The translations under genes were made by a program, and so were the position numbers. The notes beneath the pieces were generated by a model. That model was not told where the DNA came from and ran no database searches. It saw only the letters and a program-made list of their open reading frames with translations. Shown piece by piece: positions 38,496-47,192 of a stretch of DNA of 64,000 nt. Source of the stretch: Thiomicrospira aerophila AL3 (GTDB lineage Bacteria; Pseudomonadota; Gammaproteobacteria; Thiomicrospirales; Thiomicrospiraceae); contig NZ_CP007030.1 in the NCBI RefSeq assembly GCF_000227665.2, positions 1,364,001-1,428,000 of the forward strand, given 5' to 3'. Positions within the stretch are counted from its first letter, which is position 1, and each line of letters begins with the position of its first letter.

Positions 38496-38511
38496 TGGCA
38501 TAACGGTAGCT
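38496..38511 (+). promoter_or_regulatory. Sigma54 (-24/-12) promoter of the ABC transporter operon
   Basis: TGGCATAACGGTAGCT: GG and GC are separated by exactly 10 bases, and TGGCA plus TAGC compare well with the TGGCAC-N5-TTGC consensus. It sits 33 bp before the ATPase ATG, and a sigma54 activator is encoded in the same operon. Confidence 0.65.
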
Positions 38512-38544: not shown

Positions 38545-39324
38545 ATGGCCATGAGCGCACAAAATAGTAAAGTTTGGATTGCCGAGTTATCTCACACGTT
38601 TAAAAAACAACCCCACCCGACGCTAGTTAACATCAATTTGAGCGTGAACCAAGGTGAAAAAATTGCACTAATTGGACGCAGTGGCTGTGGTAAATCAACC
38701 TTACTGCAAATGATAGCAGGCCTGCTGATTCCCTCTGATGGCGCCGTGCGTATTAGCGGACACACGGTCACTAAACCCAGTGCCAAATGGAACATGATGT
38801 TTCAAAAACCCTCGCTATACCCTTGGATGACCGTGCGAGAAAACGCTGCACTGGGGCTGGTATTTGCCGGAACCTACAAGAAAAACCCTGAGTATGTTGA
38901 AAAACTTTTGGATATGGTGGGTTTAACCGAGCATAAAGATAAAAACGTTCAACAACTCTCCGGTGGCCAACAACAGCGCGTGGCGCTGGCACGGTCTCTC
39001 GCCACAGATCCGGATATTTTACTACTCGATGAACCTTTCTCAGCTCTCGATGCCTTTACTCGCACCAGTCTGCAAAACGAAGTCGCAGAGATTTGTGATC
39101 GCAGCAACATTACGCTGATTATCGTCACCCATGACATCGAAGAAGCGATTGCGATGTCTGATAGGGTGATAATCATGAGCCACAACCCAGGTGAAATTGT
39201 CGGCGAACTGCATGTTCCCTTAGCCTTTCCACGCAATCGCGGTGCTGAAGAATTCTCAGCATTGCGCGACCAACTTTTCAAACAGTTTGAACAGATTGAT
39301 CAACTCAAAAAGCAATCTGCCTAA
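38545..39324 (+). CDS. ABC transporter ATPase, NitT/TauT (SsuB/NrtD-like)
   Basis: 259 residues. Walker A GRSGCGKST, Q loop, signature LSGGQQQR, Walker B LLLDEPFSALD and the switch His in VTHDIEEA are all present. It energises import of a small anion across the inner membrane with the permease and binding protein that follow. The family covers nitrate, taurine, alkanesulfonate and bicarbonate importers; the substrate cannot be fixed from the ATPase. First gene of the operon behind the sigma54 promoter. CAGGCCTG at 38717. Confidence 0.88.
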   Translation: MAMSAQNSKVWIAELSHTFKKQPHPTLVNINLSVNQGEKIALIGRSGCGKSTLLQMIAGLLIPSDGAVRISGHTVTKPSAKWNMMFQKPSLYPWMTVRENAALGLVFAGTYKKNPEYVEKLLDMVGLTEHKDKNVQQLSGGQQQRVALARSLATDPDILLLDEPFSALDAFTRTSLQNEVAEICDRSNITLIIVTHDIEEAIAMSDRVIIMSHNPGEIVGELHVPLAFPRNRGAEEFSALRDQLFKQFEQIDQLKKQSA

Positions 39325-39352: not shown

Positions 39353-40615
39353 ATGAAAATTAAACCTGACCAACTCCTCGTTGAGGATAGCTTTTTAAAC
39401 CCTAATGACTATCACTTTAACCAAACAAAAGGCCGTCGTGACTTTATCCTAGACTCAATGGCCGCTGCTGGTGGTTTAGCCGCCGCCTTTAGTTTACCCA
39501 ATGCGATGGCCAACGCAGCACCATTTGATGATGTGGTTAAGATTGGCTACATTCCGATTACCGACGCTACGATTCTACTCGTTGCGCACGCGATGGGCTA
39601 TTTTGAAGAAGAAGGCCTTAAGGTAGAAAAACCGACCCTTATCCGTGGCTGGTCACCTTTAATTGAAGGCTTCGCCGCTCGCCGTTTTAACCTCGTCCAC
39701 TTTTTAAAACCGATTCCCATTTGGATGCGCTACAACAATAACTACCCTGTTAAGGTCACCAGTTGGGCACATACCAATGGATCAGGCCTGGTCGTTGGTC
39801 GCCATATTAATGCCACCCAGTTTAGCGAACTTGGCGGACTCCAAGTTGCCGTACCCTACTGGTATTCGATGCATAATGTGGTGTTACAAATGGGCTTGCG
39901 TGAAGCAGGTTTAGAGCCTGTTATTCAACCTCAAAACGCGCCGCTCAAACCCAATCAGGTTAACCTGCAAATCATGCCACCACCTGATATGCCGCCTGCC
40001 CTAGCTGCACGAAAAATTGATGCCTACATCGTGGCTGAGCCGTTCAATGCAGCGGGCGAAATCTTGGCCGGTGCCAAAATGTTACGCTTTACCGGTGACA
40101 TTTGGAAAAACCACCCTTGTTGCGTGGTCTGTATGCATGAAGAACAAGTGGAACAGCAAAAAGTCTGGACCCAAAAAGTCATGAATGCGGTTGTTAAAGG
40201 TGCGCTTTATGCCCAGGAAAACAAAGAGGAAGTGGCCGTCATGCTTTCGCGTGAAGGTAAAAACCGCTATTTGCCAATGACCGCTGAAGTCGTGTTAAAG
40301 GCCATGACCGATTACAATTTTGATAACTACCAAGCGCCCCATGCCATACGCAATGAAAACTGGGATGTAGGGCGCATTGATTTCAACCCATGGCCCTATC
40401 CATCGGCCACCAAGCTTATTATTGATAAAATGCGTGAGACCCTCGTCGGGGGCGATAAAACCTTCCTTGAAAATCTTACCAGTGATTTTGTGGCAAACGA
40501 CCTGGTCAATTATGACTATGTTAAAAACGCTATGGATAAGCACAATGCTTGGACTAGAATCAAAGATATTGACCCAAACAACCCCTTTGAACGTGAAGAG
40601 GTGGTTAAATTATGA
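39353..40615 (+). CDS. Twin-arginine ABC substrate-binding protein, NitT/TauT type
   Basis: 420 residues from ATG 39353, which has AAGGAG; the longer frame to 39242 lies in the ATPase gene. The N-terminus has GRRDFILDSMAAAGG, a Tat signal, and likely cleavage near AMANA. The mature part is an NrtA/SsuA-like periplasmic domain: VKIGYIPITDATILLVAHAMGYFEEEGL and KIDAYIVAEPFNAAGEILAG. Tat export suggests folding or cofactor binding before export. The ligand is unknown; CmpA/NrtA-type and sulfonate-type proteins are both compatible. CAGGCCTG at 39783. Confidence 0.82.
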   Translation: MKIKPDQLLVEDSFLNPNDYHFNQTKGRRDFILDSMAAAGGLAAAFSLPNAMANAAPFDDVVKIGYIPITDATILLVAHAMGYFEEEGLKVEKPTLIRGWSPLIEGFAARRFNLVHFLKPIPIWMRYNNNYPVKVTSWAHTNGSGLVVGRHINATQFSELGGLQVAVPYWYSMHNVVLQMGLREAGLEPVIQPQNAPLKPNQVNLQIMPPPDMPPALAARKIDAYIVAEPFNAAGEILAGAKMLRFTGDIWKNHPCCVVCMHEEQVEQQKVWTQKVMNAVVKGALYAQENKEEVAVMLSREGKNRYLPMTAEVVLKAMTDYNFDNYQAPHAIRNENWDVGRIDFNPWPYPSATKLIIDKMRETLVGGDKTFLENLTSDFVANDLVNYDYVKNAMDKHNAWTRIKDIDPNNPFEREEVVKL

Positions 40616-41448
40616 TGAAATCAACCACGCTGCCCCCCAGCGTGGCTTTTGGCCACCTGGGGATTAAAAAATTTAAGGCCATGCCAGCATGGTCACATAA
40701 TCTACTCTATGCCACCTTAGGTATGTTAATGCTATTAGCGGTATGGTGGTTTGGCGGCTGGCTGATTGCCTCCAACCCAGATACCGCCACCTTTGCTGGT
40801 TTTGGACCCGGCCCGGCATTTGCTGCACTCTATGAACTTGTCGCATCAGGCAGTATTTGGCAAACCATTTGGTCGAGCTTGTATCGGATTTTAATTGGTC
40901 TATTTTGGGCGATTGTCATAGGCGTTCCTGTCGGGGTTTTGATTGGGTATTACGCGGTAGCGCGCCAAGTAGCCAATATGCCTTTTCAATTTTTACGCAT
41001 GATTAGTCCACTAGCCTGGATGCCGATTGCGGTACTGGTCTTTGCTAGCTGGGATAACGCGATTATCTTTTTAATAACCATCGCTGCGGTTTGGCCGATT
41101 ATTTTCGGTACGGCGCATGGTGTACAGCGCATTGACCCACTCTGGTTTAAAGTCGCACATAACTTGGGAGCAGATGGAACCCAAATGCTCACGCGGGTGA
41201 TTATGCCGGCGATTGCACAAGATGTATTTGCCGGCATTCGATTGGCGGTTGGCGTCGCTTGGGTAGTGTTAGTTCCAGCAGAATACCTCGGGGTCACCAG
41301 TGGGTTAGGCTATGCTATTAATGATGCTCGAGATACGCTAGACTATGACAAACTAGCCGCTATTGTTATCGTGATCGGTATTATTGGCTTTATGCTTGAT
41401 AGTATTGGCGCAAAACTGATTAAAATGTATAGCTGGAAAATGGAATAA
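40612..41448 (+). CDS. ABC transporter permease, NitT/TauT type
   Basis: 278 residues with about six membrane helices and the EAA coupling loop AHNLGADGTQMLTRVIMP. It forms the import channel with the preceding ATPase and binding protein. The start overlaps the binding-protein stop (ATGA). Followed at 9 bp by the sigma54 activator gene, so all four genes form one operon. Confidence 0.88.
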   Translation: MMKSTTLPPSVAFGHLGIKKFKAMPAWSHNLLYATLGMLMLLAVWWFGGWLIASNPDTATFAGFGPGPAFAALYELVASGSIWQTIWSSLYRILIGLFWAIVIGVPVGVLIGYYAVARQVANMPFQFLRMISPLAWMPIAVLVFASWDNAIIFLITIAAVWPIIFGTAHGVQRIDPLWFKVAHNLGADGTQMLTRVIMPAIAQDVFAGIRLAVGVAWVVLVPAEYLGVTSGLGYAINDARDTLDYDKLAAIVIVIGIIGFMLDSIGAKLIKMYSWKME

Positions 41449-41457
41449 TGAGTACGC

Positions 41458-43077
41458 ATGAACCCATCAAAATCGCAAGACACGGCTAACGAATCCGAGT
41501 TTACCGTCATCAAACAAGCGGCCATGCAAATTGAGTTGGCCGCTGATCCTGATCAAGCCATCTATAACATTCTCAGCATCTGTTCTCGCCAAATGGGCCT
41601 AAACCGAGGGCGCGTTTTCTTAAAAGAAGCCAATAGCGATTGGTTATTTGCCGCCTATAGTTATGGTCTGACCCCTTTAGAAATCGAGCGCAGCCGTTTC
41701 CACCTGAAAGAAGGTATTACCGGTAAGGTCATGGCGACCGGACAAGCCGCGGTGGTACCCGACATTGACCTAGAGGAAGACTATTTATTTAGAACGGTGG
41801 ATCGCGCAGCCCTGCCCCAAGAACCCGTCGCCTTCTTTGCGCTACCTTTAATTAGAAAGCAAAAAACTGTCGGTGTACTCACGTTTAACCGCCTGAAAAA
41901 CCGCCAGCGCTCCTATGACCGTGATTTAGCCTTCTTAAAAATCATGGCCACCTTTATTAGTGAAATTTTGGCAGTCCATCAACTGATTGAACAACAAACG
42001 CAGCATCTAAAACACGAAAATGAACAACTACGTCAAGTGGCTTTAGGTCAAGGCAGCCAGTATGGCATTATTGGTGAAAGCTTGGCCTTAACCCAGGCAC
42101 TGGATAAAGCCGCGCGTGCCGCCGCCACGCCCGTAACAGTGATGCTAAAGGGCGAATCAGGTACAGGTAAAGAAAAGTTTTCGCGGATGGTGCATCGAGC
42201 CAGTCACCGCAAAGACGGTCCCTTTATTGCGATTAACTGCGCGGCTATTCCTAAAGATTTAATTGAAGCCGAGTTGTTTGGTTATGAAAAAGGTAGCTTT
42301 ACCGGTGCTCATCAACAAAAGAAAGGTAAATTTGAACTGGCCAACAAAGGCACGCTGTTTTTAGATGAAATTGGTGATTTAGATCTTGACCTTCAGTCGA
42401 AATTACTGCGCGTACTTGAAGAAAAATCGGTGACTCGACTTGGCGGGGTCGAACCAGTTGCGTTAGATGTGCGTATCATTGTGGCCTCGCATAAAGATTT
42501 ACAACAAGCGGTCAATGATGGCCGTTTCCGGCTCGATTTATTCTATCGCTTAAATGTATTTCCGATTGACTTGCCACCCTTGCGAGAGCGTCATGGCGAT
42601 GTGCGCATTCTCGCGCGCCATTTTTTAGACTTAACCAATCAAGACTACCATTCAAATGTTGTACTAGCCCGTGAAACGCTGGGGTACTTTGAGCAATATG
42701 ATTGGCCGGGGAATATTCGCCAACTTGAGAATGTCATCAAACGCGCAGTATTAATGGCCAATGAGCATGGCATCGTATCGGTTGCGACTATCCAAAACAT
42801 TTTAAATGATGAGCGCGGCATTACCCATGACACAGATATGACTAAGGGACAAGCACCGACACCTTTAATGCAAAGTCAACTCACCCCGCCCGTTCAGGAT
42901 TTTCAACAACATACCACCGATACCCTTACCAGGTCTTACTGGAAGGTTAATCAAGAAGATGCCGATATGTTGCAAGCGGCACTTAAACAAGCGCGCGGCA
43001 ATAAAACCCGCGCCGCAAAACTATTAAACATGACGCCACGTCAGTTAAGTTACCGCCTTGAAAAACTAGGCATTTAA
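41458..43077 (+). CDS. GAF-domain sigma54-dependent activator
   Basis: 539 residues. An N-terminal GAF domain (about 20-175) senses a signal. The AAA+ domain has Walker A GESGTGKE, the sigma54-contact loop GSFTGA (Ser in place of the usual Ala) and Walker B TLFLDEIGDL. A C-terminal Fis-type HTH ends RAAKLLNMTPRQLSYRLEKLGI. It should open the -24/-12 promoters seen at 38496 and possibly 46181. It ends 10 bp from the convergent rubredoxin-reductase gene. Being last in the operon it activates, it may form a positive loop. Confidence 0.92.
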   Translation: MNPSKSQDTANESEFTVIKQAAMQIELAADPDQAIYNILSICSRQMGLNRGRVFLKEANSDWLFAAYSYGLTPLEIERSRFHLKEGITGKVMATGQAAVVPDIDLEEDYLFRTVDRAALPQEPVAFFALPLIRKQKTVGVLTFNRLKNRQRSYDRDLAFLKIMATFISEILAVHQLIEQQTQHLKHENEQLRQVALGQGSQYGIIGESLALTQALDKAARAAATPVTVMLKGESGTGKEKFSRMVHRASHRKDGPFIAINCAAIPKDLIEAELFGYEKGSFTGAHQQKKGKFELANKGTLFLDEIGDLDLDLQSKLLRVLEEKSVTRLGGVEPVALDVRIIVASHKDLQQAVNDGRFRLDLFYRLNVFPIDLPPLRERHGDVRILARHFLDLTNQDYHSNVVLARETLGYFEQYDWPGNIRQLENVIKRAVLMANEHGIVSVATIQNILNDERGITHDTDMTKGQAPTPLMQSQLTPPVQDFQQHTTDTLTRSYWKVNQEDADMLQAALKQARGNKTRAAKLLNMTPRQLSYRLEKLGI

Positions 43078-43087
43078 AACACACTAT

Positions 43088-44461
43088 TTAACACACTAAG
43101 CCTTGATATTTATGTGCGGCTTGGGTGACGAGTTCACCGGATAGCACAAAGCCTTTGAGCTGGTCGCTTACCAGATAATTCAACGCCAAGTCTTGCTGAT
43201 CCAAAGGTTGTGCGAGTGTCCAGCGTCCACCCTGCAGCTGATGTTTTCTTAAAGGCGGACAACTTACTATCGCAAAGGAAGGGGTTTTAGTCTTAATTAA
43301 TGCCGGTTTAAGCTCAAATTTCGCCTCTTGCCCCATTAAGTGCTGTGCAATCACATGGGCCTGGCGCCGTATCGGCTCTAAATAAGCTTGAGTCTCATCT
43401 TCAAACTCTACACAATCCCCTAGCGCATAAATATACTCATTTGATGTTTGCAGCTGCTCGTTGACTACAATGCCACGTCCAATCAGCAGGCCTGCTTTTT
43501 GCGCCAGGGTAATACTGGGTTGTAACCCTATAGCGGATAAGACTAAATCCGCAGTAATCACCTGACCTTGGTGGGTATGAAGCTGGTAGCCTTGGCCGAT
43601 TGACTCAACAGCTTTCACACGGGTTTGATAATAAATCGTCATACGCTTCGCAGCTAGATGGGTTGCTAAACGCTGTGCAATCGCCTCAGGTAACACGCTC
43701 GATAGCAGCTGCGAACCGCGTGCGATTAAAGTCACCGCAATACCCTGCGACATTAAATCTTCAGCCAATTCAACGGCAATTAACCCACTTCCCATAATAG
43801 CAACCTGTTGCTTACCAGCTAACTGAGCACGAAAGCGTTTGTAACCCGCTAAATCATTAATACTCATCACATCATTGGCCGCATCACCCTCTAAATCCGG
43901 TTTTACCGGCGAGGCACCGGTTGCTAAGATCAACTTATCGTAAGAAACCATACCGGTTGTGGTGGTCAATTTCTGGCGTTGCGTATTAATAGCGGTAACG
44001 CGTGAACGAATTTTGAGCGTCATTTGTAAATTTTTGGCTTTTTCAGCACCAGACATGTCAACTAAGTCTTCAGCTGAGCGTCTTTGCGACAAGGCCATAG
44101 ACAATGCCGGTTTTGAATAAAAGGCCCCATCACAGGCGGTAATCATCGTAATATTAACCAGCGGATCTTGGGCACGAATTTTTTCAGCCACTGTCCAACC
44201 CGCATAGCCTGCCCCCACAATCACCACGCTGGGTGCTGCAGATTGTTTAACCTTGACCGATGCGGCCACCGCTGCCACTTTCGGTTTATCATCAATGAGC
44301 ACAAAGTCAGACTTAGATACCAAACACAGAGGGCAATACCAATCGTCGGGTATGTCTTCAAATCGCGTGCCGGGGGCGAGTCCACTATCTGGGTCGCCCT
44401 CGGCTTCGTCGTAGATCAAACCACAGGTTTTACAAATATACTTTTGATATGGACGGGACAT
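43088..44461 (-). CDS. Rubredoxin fused to an FAD-dependent NAD(P)H:rubredoxin reductase
   Basis: 457 residues. Residues 1-55 are a rubredoxin with the two iron-binding pairs CKTCG and CPLC. The rest is a pyridine nucleotide-disulfide reductase-type flavoprotein: [17 protein letters not shown], a second Rossmann site [17 protein letters not shown] and YALGDCVEF near the end. The fusion would pass electrons from NAD(P)H to the rubredoxin and then to a partner. Its operon neighbour, the acyl-CoA dehydrogenase-like flavoprotein, is the likely partner. CAGGCCTG at 43497. Confidence 0.88.
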
Positions 44462-44470
44462 CGTTAACTC

Positions 44471-45547
44471 CTAGGCGGCATCCAGGCGCGCCAATTCTTT
44501 ACGTAAATGCTTAATGGACGGGGTCACTATAATCACAAAGTAAGCTTCACGCTGTTTACGCTGGGCCGGCGCATCTAAAATATAGCCTTTGGCGCCGCAA
44601 TGTTGCATCACCGCATCCGCTGCACGTTTAGCAAACTCAGACCCCAACAATCTTGCCTCTAATACCTGACGTAAATAATCAGTCGATGAATCAAAAGGCG
44701 TAGCGGCAATATCAGCAATCATCGCTTTGACATCATCCAGCTCTTCTTGCAACTCATCAGGGCGATCATCAAGGTAAACATTGATTTCACCCAGAGTTAA
44801 ATCAGCCTTGTGCATTTCATCAATACAGCCTTGGATAACACCCAATGCCATACCGGTTTGCAATAAAATAAAGCCTGCTTTAATTTTGCTTAGATAAGGC
44901 TTAATCGGGTCGGCCAACAGATAACGTTTCGGTAAAAAAGCATTTTCAAAAATAAGTGCGTAAGTACCCGAACCTTCCATACCCGCAAAGGACACCATTT
45001 GTTTCATGGTTAAACCAGGCAGATTACAGGGCACCAGTGCCATCACATCTTTCTGCCCTACTTCACTTTTTACGGTAAAAATGGAACCGAAAAAGTGTTT
45101 ATCACTCTTATCTAACAGGTTGGATACCCATGGCAAAGTGCCATTGATGATATAACCGTCTTCGGTCTCAACCGCGCTTAACTTCAGCTCCTCAATCCCC
45201 GAAAAATACTTCATAGGATTGGACAGCGCGGTTGCGCCATAAACCTCACCGGCCACCATTTTGGGTAGAATCTCTGTTTTTAACCACTCATTATCGGAGT
45301 TCTCGATATACCAGCAGCACACATCATGTGCCCACATCATAAATCCGGTTGTCATACATTCGCGTGATACGTCGGCCATAGCACTAATCGCCGCAAACAA
45401 ATCCGTTTCGCCGCCATTTAAAGAAGCAATATGCGGCTTGAAGGCACCAGCTTGACCCAGTTTTGCCAATATATCCGTGGTGTAGTGACCGTGGTCAATC
45501 GAAACAACTTTGGGTTTTAATTCATTTTTAACGATATCAGCAATCAT
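44471..45547 (-). CDS. Acyl-CoA dehydrogenase-like flavoprotein, atypical active site
   Basis: 358 residues, slightly short for the family. The N-terminal helical part, the central strand domain (GATALSNPMKYFSG, GYIINGTLPWVSN) and the C-terminal QHCGAKGYILDAPAQRKQRE region match acyl-CoA dehydrogenases. Where medium-chain enzymes have the catalytic Glu in IYEGT, this protein reads IVTPS, so ordinary acyl-CoA oxidation is doubtful. The same fold includes flavin monooxygenases for organosulfur compounds (DszC, SfnC type), which is an alternative. Same operon as the rubredoxin reductase (9 bp away) and the OsmC-like gene. Confidence 0.75.
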   Translation of the reverse strand: MIADIVKNELKPKVVSIDHGHYTTDILAKLGQAGAFKPHIASLNGGETDLFAAISAMADVSRECMTTGFMMWAHDVCCWYIENSDNEWLKTEILPKMVAGEVYGATALSNPMKYFSGIEELKLSAVETEDGYIINGTLPWVSNLLDKSDKHFFGSIFTVKSEVGQKDVMALVPCNLPGLTMKQMVSFAGMEGSGTYALIFENAFLPKRYLLADPIKPYLSKIKAGFILLQTGMALGVIQGCIDEMHKADLTLGEINVYLDDRPDELQEELDDVKAMIADIAATPFDSSTDYLRQVLEARLLGSEFAKRAADAVMQHCGAKGYILDAPAQRKQREAYFVIIVTPSIKHLRKELARLDAA

Positions 45548-45592
45548 CTTGCGCTCCTAAGCCTGGCTTAGCCAGGCGTCATTCAATAAGGG

Positions 45593-46126
45593 TTAGACTA
45601 GCGATGCGTTAACAGGCACTTTGTTGATATAGGTATTGGCAACCGGTGACCATTTGGTAGCATGCTGTACCAATTCTTCAAGTTCTTCTTTTGAGCAATC
45701 CGCTTCGATATCAAAAAAGGCACGTACTTCACGCACACCCAAAATTTTGTTGGGATCAACATCACCCGTTCCCCATACGGCGGTGATATTGATGTCACCT
45801 TCCAACGAAATTTCGAGCTTATGCAATGCAATGCCGCGCGCGGTAGCATTAGCTTGAATACCTACCGATAGACAGGAGCCCAACGAAAGGAGTGCCATTT
45901 CAGATGGATTAGGCGCCGTGTCTTCCCCTAGCAGGCCTGGTGGTTCGTCCACAACAATCGGTGGTAAACCGCGGACATAATTGATGTTTTTGAATTGACC
46001 TTCTAATACGGTCTTGGATTTAATGGTTTTAATCGTGTCAGGATTGGCTTTGCCCTGCTCAGCCAATGACATTAAACCTTGGTTATCGATAGGTCTTAAA
46101 CATGAAGGGACATATAATTCAGTCAT
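45593..46126 (-). CDS. OsmC-like protein
   Basis: 177 residues. OsmC/Ohr fold with the first active Cys in LLSLGSCLSVGIQA. The second Cys, normally just before P(V/I)SN in OsmC, is replaced: the segment reads TKWSPVANTY. A two-Cys peroxidase cycle is therefore unlikely; it may bind or process a thiol or organosulfur intermediate. First gene of the minus-strand operon with the flavoprotein and reductase, behind a sigma54-like promoter. CAGGCCTG at 45932. Confidence 0.82.
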   Translation of the reverse strand: MTELYVPSCLRPIDNQGLMSLAEQGKANPDTIKTIKSKTVLEGQFKNINYVRGLPPIVVDEPPGLLGEDTAPNPSEMALLSLGSCLSVGIQANATARGIALHKLEISLEGDINITAVWGTGDVDPNKILGVREVRAFFDIEADCSKEELEELVQHATKWSPVANTYINKVPVNASLV

Positions 46127-46180: not shown

Positions 46181-46196
46181 ACCAGGAGCGTGCCAC
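46181..46196 (-). promoter_or_regulatory. Sigma54-like promoter before the OsmC operon
   Basis: Minus strand TGGCACGCTCCTGGT: a perfect TGGCACG -24 element, but the -12 part is TGGT rather than TTGC (GG-N10-GT). It lies 55 bp before the OsmC-like ATG. The good -24 box and the shared activator make it plausible. Confidence 0.45.
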
Positions 46197-46264: not shown

Positions 46265-46314
46265 AACAATTTAAGACAATTTGTAGGCTTGCCAAAACAT
46301 TGTCTTAAATTGTT
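46265..46314. promoter_or_regulatory. Perfect 16-bp inverted repeat, candidate activator site or transcript end
   Basis: AACAATTTAAGACAAT at 46265-46280 pairs exactly with ATTGTCTTAAATTGTT at 46299-46314, with an 18-bp spacer. It overlaps the last codons of the DUF5718 gene and lies 70-130 bp upstream of the OsmC-operon promoter. No T run follows on either strand, so an operator or enhancer role is preferred over a terminator. Confidence 0.5.
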
Positions 46315-47192
46315 AAATCCTGCACTAATTGCTTGAGGCGTATCACCCCTTGTGACACCAATTTTTCATCTGTTTCTTTTGCTAGACTGGGTAAATTTTC
46401 AACAAACGCTAAGGGCACAAGCCATACACTGAGTTGGTCACCGGGTTGTAAATAGCACTGCTCCCCAAAAGCGGTATAGCGCGTTGCACCCAACGACACG
46501 ATGAGTTGCTTGGGATAATCTAAGGCGTGTACTATCGCCGGCATATCTTCCAACGGGCCTTCATCTAACTGAGTATTTAACTGTTTAAGCATCCAGTTCA
46601 TTAATCGTTCATTCCAGTAACTATAATGCTTAACCGGTGTCGTTTGACCATAGGCTTGTAGCAGGCCTGCTCGTTGGTGGTAACAGGCAATGGCATAGTT
46701 TTGCAAATCGCTTTGCTCGCCCCAGTTTTCAAGCTTAAACCAGTGTTGTGCAATGCCGGTTGAAGCAGGCCCCCAGTTTTTCTTGAAGCTGATTTTGGGC
46801 GCATGAATCCGATTAGAACAATCATTAAATGCGGTAAAGGCAACAGGCGCTAATCCAGTCACCTGCCCTGTTACATCATAAAAAACATCCAACAACAGAG
46901 CGAGTTCAGGTTCAATTTGCAACTTGGTAGGCGGATCGATTTGGCTAAAATCAGCCACAATCTGCTCATGAGAAAGTGGGTAAACACCCAAAAAGCTCCG
47001 CTGGTTAGGCAGATAGATTGGAAACAAACCTTTTGGCGCTTCAGCTGACTCAGTAGTAATGGCGATAAAATCAGCTGCCTCACCCGCCTGATTTAAGTGT
47101 TCAGCGAAATTACCTGCAATACCCAGTACAGGTATGGCGGCTAATTGTGCCTGACTTAACTGAAACGACGTTAGCCGCTTGTGGCTACTCAT
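46305..47192 (-). CDS. DUF5718 family protein
   Basis: 295 residues, recognised as the DUF5718 family, which looks distantly related to fumarylacetoacetate hydrolases. It starts GIAGNFAEHLNQAGEAADF after a short lead and contains APKGLFPIYLPN, EPELALLLDVFYD and SFKKNWGPASTGIA. No experimentally defined role is known to me. It overlaps the MscS gene by 4 bp, so they are co-transcribed. CAGGCCTG at 46672. Confidence 0.75.
   Translation of the reverse strand: MSSHKRLTSFQLSQAQLAAIPVLGIAGNFAEHLNQAGEAADFIAITTESAEAPKGLFPIYLPNQRSFLGVYPLSHEQIVADFSQIDPPTKLQIEPELALLLDVFYDVTGQVTGLAPVAFTAFNDCSNRIHAPKISFKKNWGPASTGIAQHWFKLENWGEQSDLQNYAIACYHQRAGLLQAYGQTTPVKHYSYWNERLMNWMLKQLNTQLDEGPLEDMPAIVHALDYPKQLIVSLGATRYTAFGEQCYLQPGDQLSVWLVPLAFVENLPSLAKETDEKLVSQGVIRLKQLVQDLTI

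Follow-up and report, generated by a model that had tools for sequence, protein, structure and literature searches.

A conserved module of a flavoprotein and a single-cysteine OsmC-like protein in Thiomicrospira aerophila AL3, tied to cyanate metabolism and possibly forming cyanate from thiocyanate

What is the task of two adjacent and intact genes whose products have both lost a residue central to the chemistry of their families? The question is raised by Thiomicrospira aerophila AL3, in which a flavoprotein related to acyl-CoA dehydrogenases and an OsmC-like protein are encoded side by side on contig NZ_CP007030.1, within a stretch of 64,000 nucleotides (positions 1,364,001 to 1,428,000) referred to here as the window. 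The original prediction, made from the letters of this DNA, held that neither protein should run its family's usual reaction and that the pair has a joint new role. The comparative analysis reported here establishes that the pair, together with a rubredoxin-NADH reductase, a NifA-like activator and a nitrate-type ABC importer, forms a real conserved module, and a tie of this module to cyanate metabolism is well supported. The link between the pair and cyanase is the main new result. That the pair forms the centre of a cyanate-producing module, with thiocyanate as the most likely source, is given a probability of a little under one half (about 0.48).

The flavoprotein has 358 amino acids in an intact frame containing REAYFVIIVTPSIKHLRKE. 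It matches PF02771, the N-terminal domain of acyl-CoA dehydrogenases, in a profile search, and its predicted model (mean predicted local distance difference test score, pLDDT, 95.3; predicted template modelling score 0.93) has the acyl-CoA dehydrogenase fold, with a VIA Z of 39.7 to 4kto_C over 342 residues. The whole fold is shared with short-chain, isovaleryl and butyryl acyl-CoA dehydrogenases (4kto, 1ivh, 1jqi and 9w61; 342-350 residues, VIA Z 38.4-39.7), at 14-23% identity to 50 structures among the matches listed. Unlike these dehydrogenases, the flavoprotein has a Glu at neither of the two known catalytic positions and adjoins genes for an OsmC-like protein and a rubredoxin reductase. 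In the pairwise alignment with 1jqi, a short-chain acyl-CoA dehydrogenase, the last aligned position pairs residue 340 of the window protein with residue 366 of the chain; extended without gaps, the alignment places Thr342 opposite residue 368, the catalytic Glu of the motif IYEGT. The reading of IVTPS as the replacement of that motif is thereby borne out. Two family alignments, of 21 and 43 rows, both include the window protein and overlap in lineages. Position 342 is Thr in 43/43 rows of the larger and in 20/21 of the smaller (Ser in the remaining row), and Pro343 is common to all rows of both. The C-terminal stretch around VTP[SA] is conserved in flavoprotein relatives, and Thr-Pro is retained in plasmid-borne and other relatives down to about 32% identity. 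A compensating Glu at residue 225, the alternative position used by isovaleryl- and long-chain enzymes, is ruled out, this residue being Gly in 20 rows and Ala in one row of the smaller alignment, and Gly in 29 and Ala in 14 of the larger. The window protein itself has Thr342 and Gly225 at these two positions, and hence no Glu at either.

The OsmC-like protein (177 amino acids, frame intact) has the OsmC fold, as judged from its profile match and from a predicted model (pLDDT 90.0) that resembles OsmC/Ohr chains. It carries LGSCLSVG followed by WSPVANT: the peroxidatic Cys is present as Cys85, and Ser160 occupies the site of the resolving second Cys, a profile alignment to an Ohr protein placing Ser opposite that residue. 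Cys85, Ser160, Pro161, Ala163 and Asn164 are invariant in 39/39 aligned rows. To these alignments was added a comparison of 109 flavoprotein loci, comprising the best 80 of 546 candidates, which lean to near relatives, and 29 of 41 stretches from order and class (15) and phylum (14) samples; among the 12 stretches omitted, eight were copies of loci among the 80 and four (L130, L139, L142, L145) were not. Neighbouring genes were called with a simple picker of the longest open reading frame, and their starts are approximate. An OsmC partner was matched in 105 of the 109 loci, with Ser-Pro at the second site in 105/105. The motif of the first Cys was matched in 103 partners; one more (L143) carries this Cys within a variant form of the motif, and L176 is left out of the count, its frame having been picked too long. 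Near the second site, in four partners (L074, L079, L096, L101) the Pro is followed within a few residues by a Cys (SPMANC), and one of the four has another Cys before the Ser; the window protein has a Cys at neither place. A second OsmC-family gene lies elsewhere in the genome (G000:C1:146235-146531).

The second Cys is also absent outside the flavoprotein-OsmC pair. The closest solved structure, GSU2788 of Geobacter (2opl; 35% identity, Z 16.6 over 164 residues), shares Ser-Pro at the same site (SPVxNT); we know of no function for it. The altered OsmC site therefore stands as described in the original prediction, but it is not an innovation of this locus. The substitutions in both proteins are conserved among clustered homologues, and a reading of the two as ordinary enzymes in decay is ruled out. 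From what is known of catalysis, neither protein is likely to carry out the usual reaction of its family, and the joint role predicted for the pair is strongly supported by its constancy across the flavoprotein loci and by these conserved substitutions.

The conserved neighbourhood extends well beyond the pair. Across the 109 loci, the reductase was matched in 94, a rubredoxin motif being found on 91 of these matches (at most 3.5 kb from the flavoprotein), and the activator in 79; in L179 the usual reductase is replaced by one resembling those of dioxygenases. The importer binding protein is of the window type in 43 loci and of the type found in cyanate clusters in 47. Further neighbours are a two-domain rhodanese (42 loci), a porin (13) and a formate/nitrite-type channel (2). 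Representatives of cyanase, rhodanese, the formate/nitrite transporter and the sigma-54 activator, the last with a PAS domain, were checked by profile. A Blh-like sulfur dioxygenase accompanies the pair in four loci; two of these proteins, checked by profile, score 390 and 383 bits with the dioxygenase part of Blh, for which the cut-off of 625 was set for a longer fusion, and one was compared with solved structures, ETHE1 among them.

By record titles, the module occurs in Thiomicrospira/Hydrogenovibrio/Thiomicrorhabdus, Halothiobacillus, Guyparkeria, Thioalkalivibrio, Acidithiobacillus, Vreelandella/Halomonas, many Burkholderiales and Azospirillum, and on plasmids of Marinobacter, Acetobacter, Methylocystis and Pseudosulfitobacter. 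Flavoprotein matches were found in 39 of 72,556 plasmid records. Among the six examined, the OsmC-flavoprotein order is retained on the plasmids of the four genera just named, the two genes being annotated there as "acyl-CoA dehydrogenase" and "OsmC family protein"; cynS is present in the stretches from Marinobacter and Acetobacter, a sulfurtransferase in that from Pseudosulfitobacter and neither in that from Methylocystis. The stretches around plasmid copies L187 and L190 contain transposase genes, an indication of spread as a cassette. More distant relatives are found in other settings. On a Moraxella plasmid (L188, 7136-9074) a carboxymuconolactone-decarboxylase-family protein, not OsmC, adjoins the flavoprotein, and its relatives in L081, L180 and L181 are 46-59% identical to it. 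On Synechococcus plasmid pANL (L186, 7409-11868) a 32% identical flavoprotein has LTPS at the same place and has as neighbours a DUF4242 protein, a cysteine synthase and a similar ABC importer; this plasmid region is sulfur-regulated.

The association with cyanase is seen both in whole genomes and in gene neighbourhoods. In the order sample (62 genomes), cyanase occurs in 27/27 flavoprotein carriers and in 5/35 non-carriers (Fisher 7e-13), and in the class sample (369 genomes) in 13/14 carriers and 38/355 non-carriers (p 2e-11), genomes being treated as independent in both tests. The E-value thresholds for a carrier were 1e-30 and 1e-40 in the order and class samples, and both samples include the window genome and G043 as carriers. 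In the phylum sample, the flavoprotein was found at E 1e-60 in 16/398 genomes, and stretches were fetched for 14. Cyanase lies inside the fetched stretch in 73/109 loci, that is, in 52/80 of the best loci, 13/15 of those from order and class and 8/14 of those from the phylum. In several lineages it is part of a one-strand array. For example, L179 has the order importer-OsmC-flavoprotein-rhodanese-cyanase-reductase, a Marinobacter plasmid has importer-activator-OsmC-flavoprotein-reductase-cynS, and Acidithiobacillus (L067, L071) has activator-OsmC-flavoprotein-reductase-formate/nitrite-type channel-porin-cyanase-rhodanese, the channel and the rhodanese of L067 having been assigned by profile. 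Six phylum loci (L172, L173, L177, L182, L183, L184) have OsmC-flavoprotein-rhodanese with a cyanate-type importer and cyanase nearby. The formate/nitrite-transporter-family channel of Acidithiobacillus (L067, 12564-13469; L071) stands where other lineages keep the ABC importer and may carry the same anion.

The sole cyanase detected in the window genome maps to about 183 kb on the contig. Its cluster, some 1.2 Mb away from the window block, includes a separate binding protein, permease and ATPase as well as a sigma-54 activator in divergent orientation. The same order is outlined for cynFABDS of Pseudomonas pseudoalcaligenes CECT5344, a cluster induced by cyanate (PMC6627978). That cluster shares with the window block a sigma-54-type activator and an ABC importer; the window block differs in that it contains no cyanase, includes in addition genes for OsmC, flavoprotein and rubredoxin reductase, and encodes a different, second importer. 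A same-genus genome (G055) has both a cynFABDS-like copy and a cyanase beside the pair, and the window lineage therefore appears to lack only the local copy. A DUF5718 protein (46305-47192, minus strand) is encoded upstream of the OsmC gene, approximately where several close relatives have a divergent cyanase.

In the window (Table 1), the pair is followed by the rubredoxin-NADH reductase, and these genes converge on those of the NifA-like activator and the importer, whose binding protein has nitrate and bicarbonate transport proteins among its nearest solved relatives. Upstream regions were scanned for the best -24/-12 site within 250 nucleotides, with a scoring scheme of our own (at least 11 of 14.5) and shuffled controls; copies of loci were kept, and importers less than 50% identical to that of the window were dropped. 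Sites resembling those of sigma-54 precede 35/41 importer ATPase starts (2 in shuffled sequence), 77/103 OsmC starts (26) and 70/88 activator starts (20), whereas at internal starts they are found for 35/103 reductase (26), 44/107 flavoprotein (28) and 18/79 permease (19) genes. At the OsmC-side site of the window, the -24 box is full and the -12 box weak.

Table 1. Genes and putative promoter sites of the module in the window
Feature	Position	Strand	Basis or remark
Flavoprotein, acyl-CoA-dehydrogenase fold, without catalytic Glu (IVTPS for IYEGT)	44471..45547	-	distinct conserved subfamily
OsmC-like protein with Cys85 as its one conserved Cys and Ser160 at the site of the resolving Cys	45593..46126	-	PF02566
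Rubredoxin fused to NorW-like NADH-dependent FAD reductase	43088..44461	-	profile match; probable electron supplier
NifA-like sigma-54 activator with GAF domain	41458..43077	+	profile match
ABC importer ATPase (type I)	38545..39324	+	profile match
Importer substrate-binding protein, nitrate/bicarbonate-type (NMT1_2; NrtA/CmpA-like)	39353..40615	+	profile, solved relatives
ABC importer permease	40612..41448	+	profile match
Sigma-54-like -24/-12 site TGGCACGCTCCTGGT	46181..46195	-	69 nt upstream of OsmC start
Sigma-54-like site TGGCATAACGGTAGC	38496..38510	+	49 nt upstream of importer ATPase

Two other transport roles were considered for the importer and rejected. Selenocysteine-assisted organometal (Sao) transport finds no backing, as the importer and the OsmC-like protein match the Sao-type and OsmC-seleno models below their cut-offs and the operon differs from that presented in the review of this system, as far as its text describes it. 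Sulfonate uptake was set aside because the score with the SsuA model is 76.5 against a cut-off of 163.5; no search for sulfonate-degrading neighbours was made.

Given that the genome's cyanase cluster has its own importer, the window importer should carry a precursor of cyanate and not cyanate itself. Thiocyanate is suggested by the expected product, cyanate, by the small-anion importer, by sulfane-sulfur neighbours in some loci and by the need for a precursor that differs from cyanate; as a substrate it is moderately supported. We tentatively favour a flavin- and thiol-dependent system that would cleave thiocyanate (or cyanide, by way of a rhodanese cycle) to cyanate, with the single-Cys OsmC-like protein as covalent carrier and the remodelled flavoprotein as the oxygenase delivering the intermediate. 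We know of no counterpart for such a system, and its Cys chemistry, its use of O2 and the direction of electron flow are put forward as a proposal. Sigma-54 RNA polymerase with the GAF-containing NifA-like activator would turn on the importer genes and those for OsmC, flavoprotein and reductase. The nitrate-type ABC importer would take up thiocyanate as a small anion, and in lineages without it rhodanese may produce thiocyanate from cyanide. The flavoprotein would receive electrons from NADH by way of the reductase and its rubredoxin and, without the base that starts acyl-CoA oxidation, could react with O2 and oxygenate the thiocyanate sulfur. Cys85 of the OsmC-like protein would then capture the sulfur-cyano intermediate as a mixed Cys-S-SCN. 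With no resolving Cys nearby, this adduct could persist until water removes the cyano group as cyanate and leaves a Cys persulfide; the missing residue fits a carrier, as a carrier must hold its adduct. The sulfane sulfur may be passed to rhodanese, sulfur dioxygenase or cellular sulfur oxidation, and cyanase would convert the cyanate to ammonia and CO2.

Flavoenzymes of the same fold with other reactions offer partial parallels to the flavoprotein. 3-Sulfinopropionyl-CoA desulfinase (5ahs) aligns with it over 347 residues at Z 36.5; the reaction of this enzyme concerns a sulfur group, its substrate being a CoA thioester, and the flavoprotein scores 41.5 with the desulfinase model NF042439 of NCBIfam against a cut-off of 600. 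Two-component flavin monooxygenases of the DszC/HpaB type also lack the dehydrogenase Glu and have a dedicated NAD(P)H reductase, the partner seen here in 94 of the 109 loci, although their usual flavin reductases differ from the rubredoxin-fused type. The 50 matches listed in the fold search are mostly dehydrogenases, and flavin monooxygenases of this fold are not prominent among them. Cyanate is likewise the product given for copper thiocyanate dehydrogenase and for the proposed cyanide monooxygenase (PMC5778177, PMC11049912, as far as these sources go). The former is presented in PMC5778177 as a copper enzyme passing electrons to cytochrome c, unlike the window module. The window proteins match Pfam families other than those of copper thiocyanate dehydrogenase and cobalt thiocyanate hydrolase, no search aimed at these two enzymes having been made.

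Several observations weigh against a thiocyanate-cleaving module. Thiocyanate was selected by elimination, and cyanide would suit cyanase and rhodanese nearly as well; cioAB-like genes adjoin the pair in L176. No cyanase was found in 36/109 fetched stretches, some of them short, including phylum loci L174, L176, L178, L180, L181 and L185, and the genome of G382, a class carrier that is 85% complete, contains none. An OsmC match is missing from four of the 109 loci, three of them (L081, L180, L181) holding the carboxymuconolactone-decarboxylase-family relative instead; the wider flavoprotein family is not uniform, as the Moraxella and Synechococcus relatives have other partners, and neither OsmC nor cyanase is annotated in the pANL stretch. 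The sulfur dioxygenase is confined to its four loci. Among the 81 loci flanked on each side by 5.5 kb or more, importer and rhodanese occur together in 4, the importer only in 32, rhodanese only in 28 and neither in 17 (raw p 1.9e-6), but this exclusion is not significant on the tree (median p 0.25 for independent pairs); it was rejected as proof that thiocyanate has two sources and is retained as a hint. Guyparkeria SCN-R1 carries the module (L053) and also, as its description sets out, copper thiocyanate dehydrogenase and a cyanase operon (PMC6504805), so that the module is not required there to explain thiocyanate use and would be additional.

The alternative that survives best, though unlikely, is a cyanide monooxygenase. 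The flavoprotein would supply peroxide or oxygenate cyanide, and Cys85 as a sulfenic acid (Cys-SOH) would react with cyanide, acting instead of the absent resolving Cys, to Cys-SCN, the hydrolysis of which would give cyanate for cyanase. The ties of the neighbourhood to cyanase and rhodanese would be accounted for, as rhodanese can mean cyanide detoxification. Hydrogen cyanide crosses membranes and should need no ABC importer, however, and a type I binding protein is found in 43/109 loci; the sulfur-dioxygenase neighbours in four loci would also be left unexplained. The genes beside the pair in L176 (6676-9136), which we take from their sequence to encode the two subunits of a cyanide-insensitive bd-type oxidase (cioAB-like), would fit cyanide, yet relatives of them were found nowhere else among the 109 loci. 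In the relevant parts of PMC11049912 and PMC5778177, a cyanide monooxygenase that supplies cyanase is treated as proposed and not demonstrated.

It is less probable still that the module splits another small compound of sulfur and nitrogen, such as an organic thiocyanate, thiourea or a thiocarbamate, with cyanate among the products. The same neighbourhood evidence would apply, and the distant flavoprotein relatives with other partners and no cyanase in their stretch may point to more than one substrate in the family, but the solved relatives of the importer include transport proteins for nitrate and bicarbonate, which are small inorganic anions. A purely protective pair, repairing thiol damage by cyanate (carbamylation) or peroxides next to an importer for cyanate, is improbable. 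OsmC proteins are classically peroxidases, the OsmC fold is confirmed, and the window importer is in the same broad family as the cyanate importer; against this, another OsmC-family protein and a cynFABDS-like cluster with an importer are already present in the genome, and a dedicated NADH-reductase-rubredoxin partner points to a redox enzyme turning over a substrate. That unrelated genes merely share a nitrogen-responsive neighbourhood and are tied to cyanase through common sigma-54 control alone, as the sigma-54-like sites at both operons and the distant cyanase of the window genome might suggest, is very unlikely in view of the co-occurrence across genomes in two samples and the one-strand arrays with cyanase in several lineages.

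Cyanate formation from thiocyanate thus remains the preferred role of the module, for which a literature search on the gene combination, with most subscription journals outside its reach, gave no description in titles or the opening lines of abstracts; one paper, PMC5596200, contains cyanase, OsmC and acyl-CoA dehydrogenase together. The enzyme that converts thiocyanate to cyanate is unsettled in bacteria using thiocyanate as a nitrogen source, and the module is a concrete candidate. The enzyme first proposed for this step is referred to as uncharacterized in the available text of PMC5778177, copper thiocyanate dehydrogenase having been described later. In a metatranscriptome, the portion of the report available mentions cyanase transcripts and no thiocyanate dehydrogenase transcripts (PMC6172326), and for cyanide the corresponding monooxygenase is stated not to have been demonstrated (PMC11049912, in the part concerned). 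Many bacteria carrying the module have no assigned enzyme for making cyanate from thiocyanate or cyanide. If the proposal is true, the module would supply a so far missing way into the cyanate pathway for many bacteria that scavenge nitrogen, with relevance to the nitrogen and sulfur cycles and to the treatment of mining and coking waste, and it would allow better annotation of genes now named acyl-CoA dehydrogenase or OsmC family protein.

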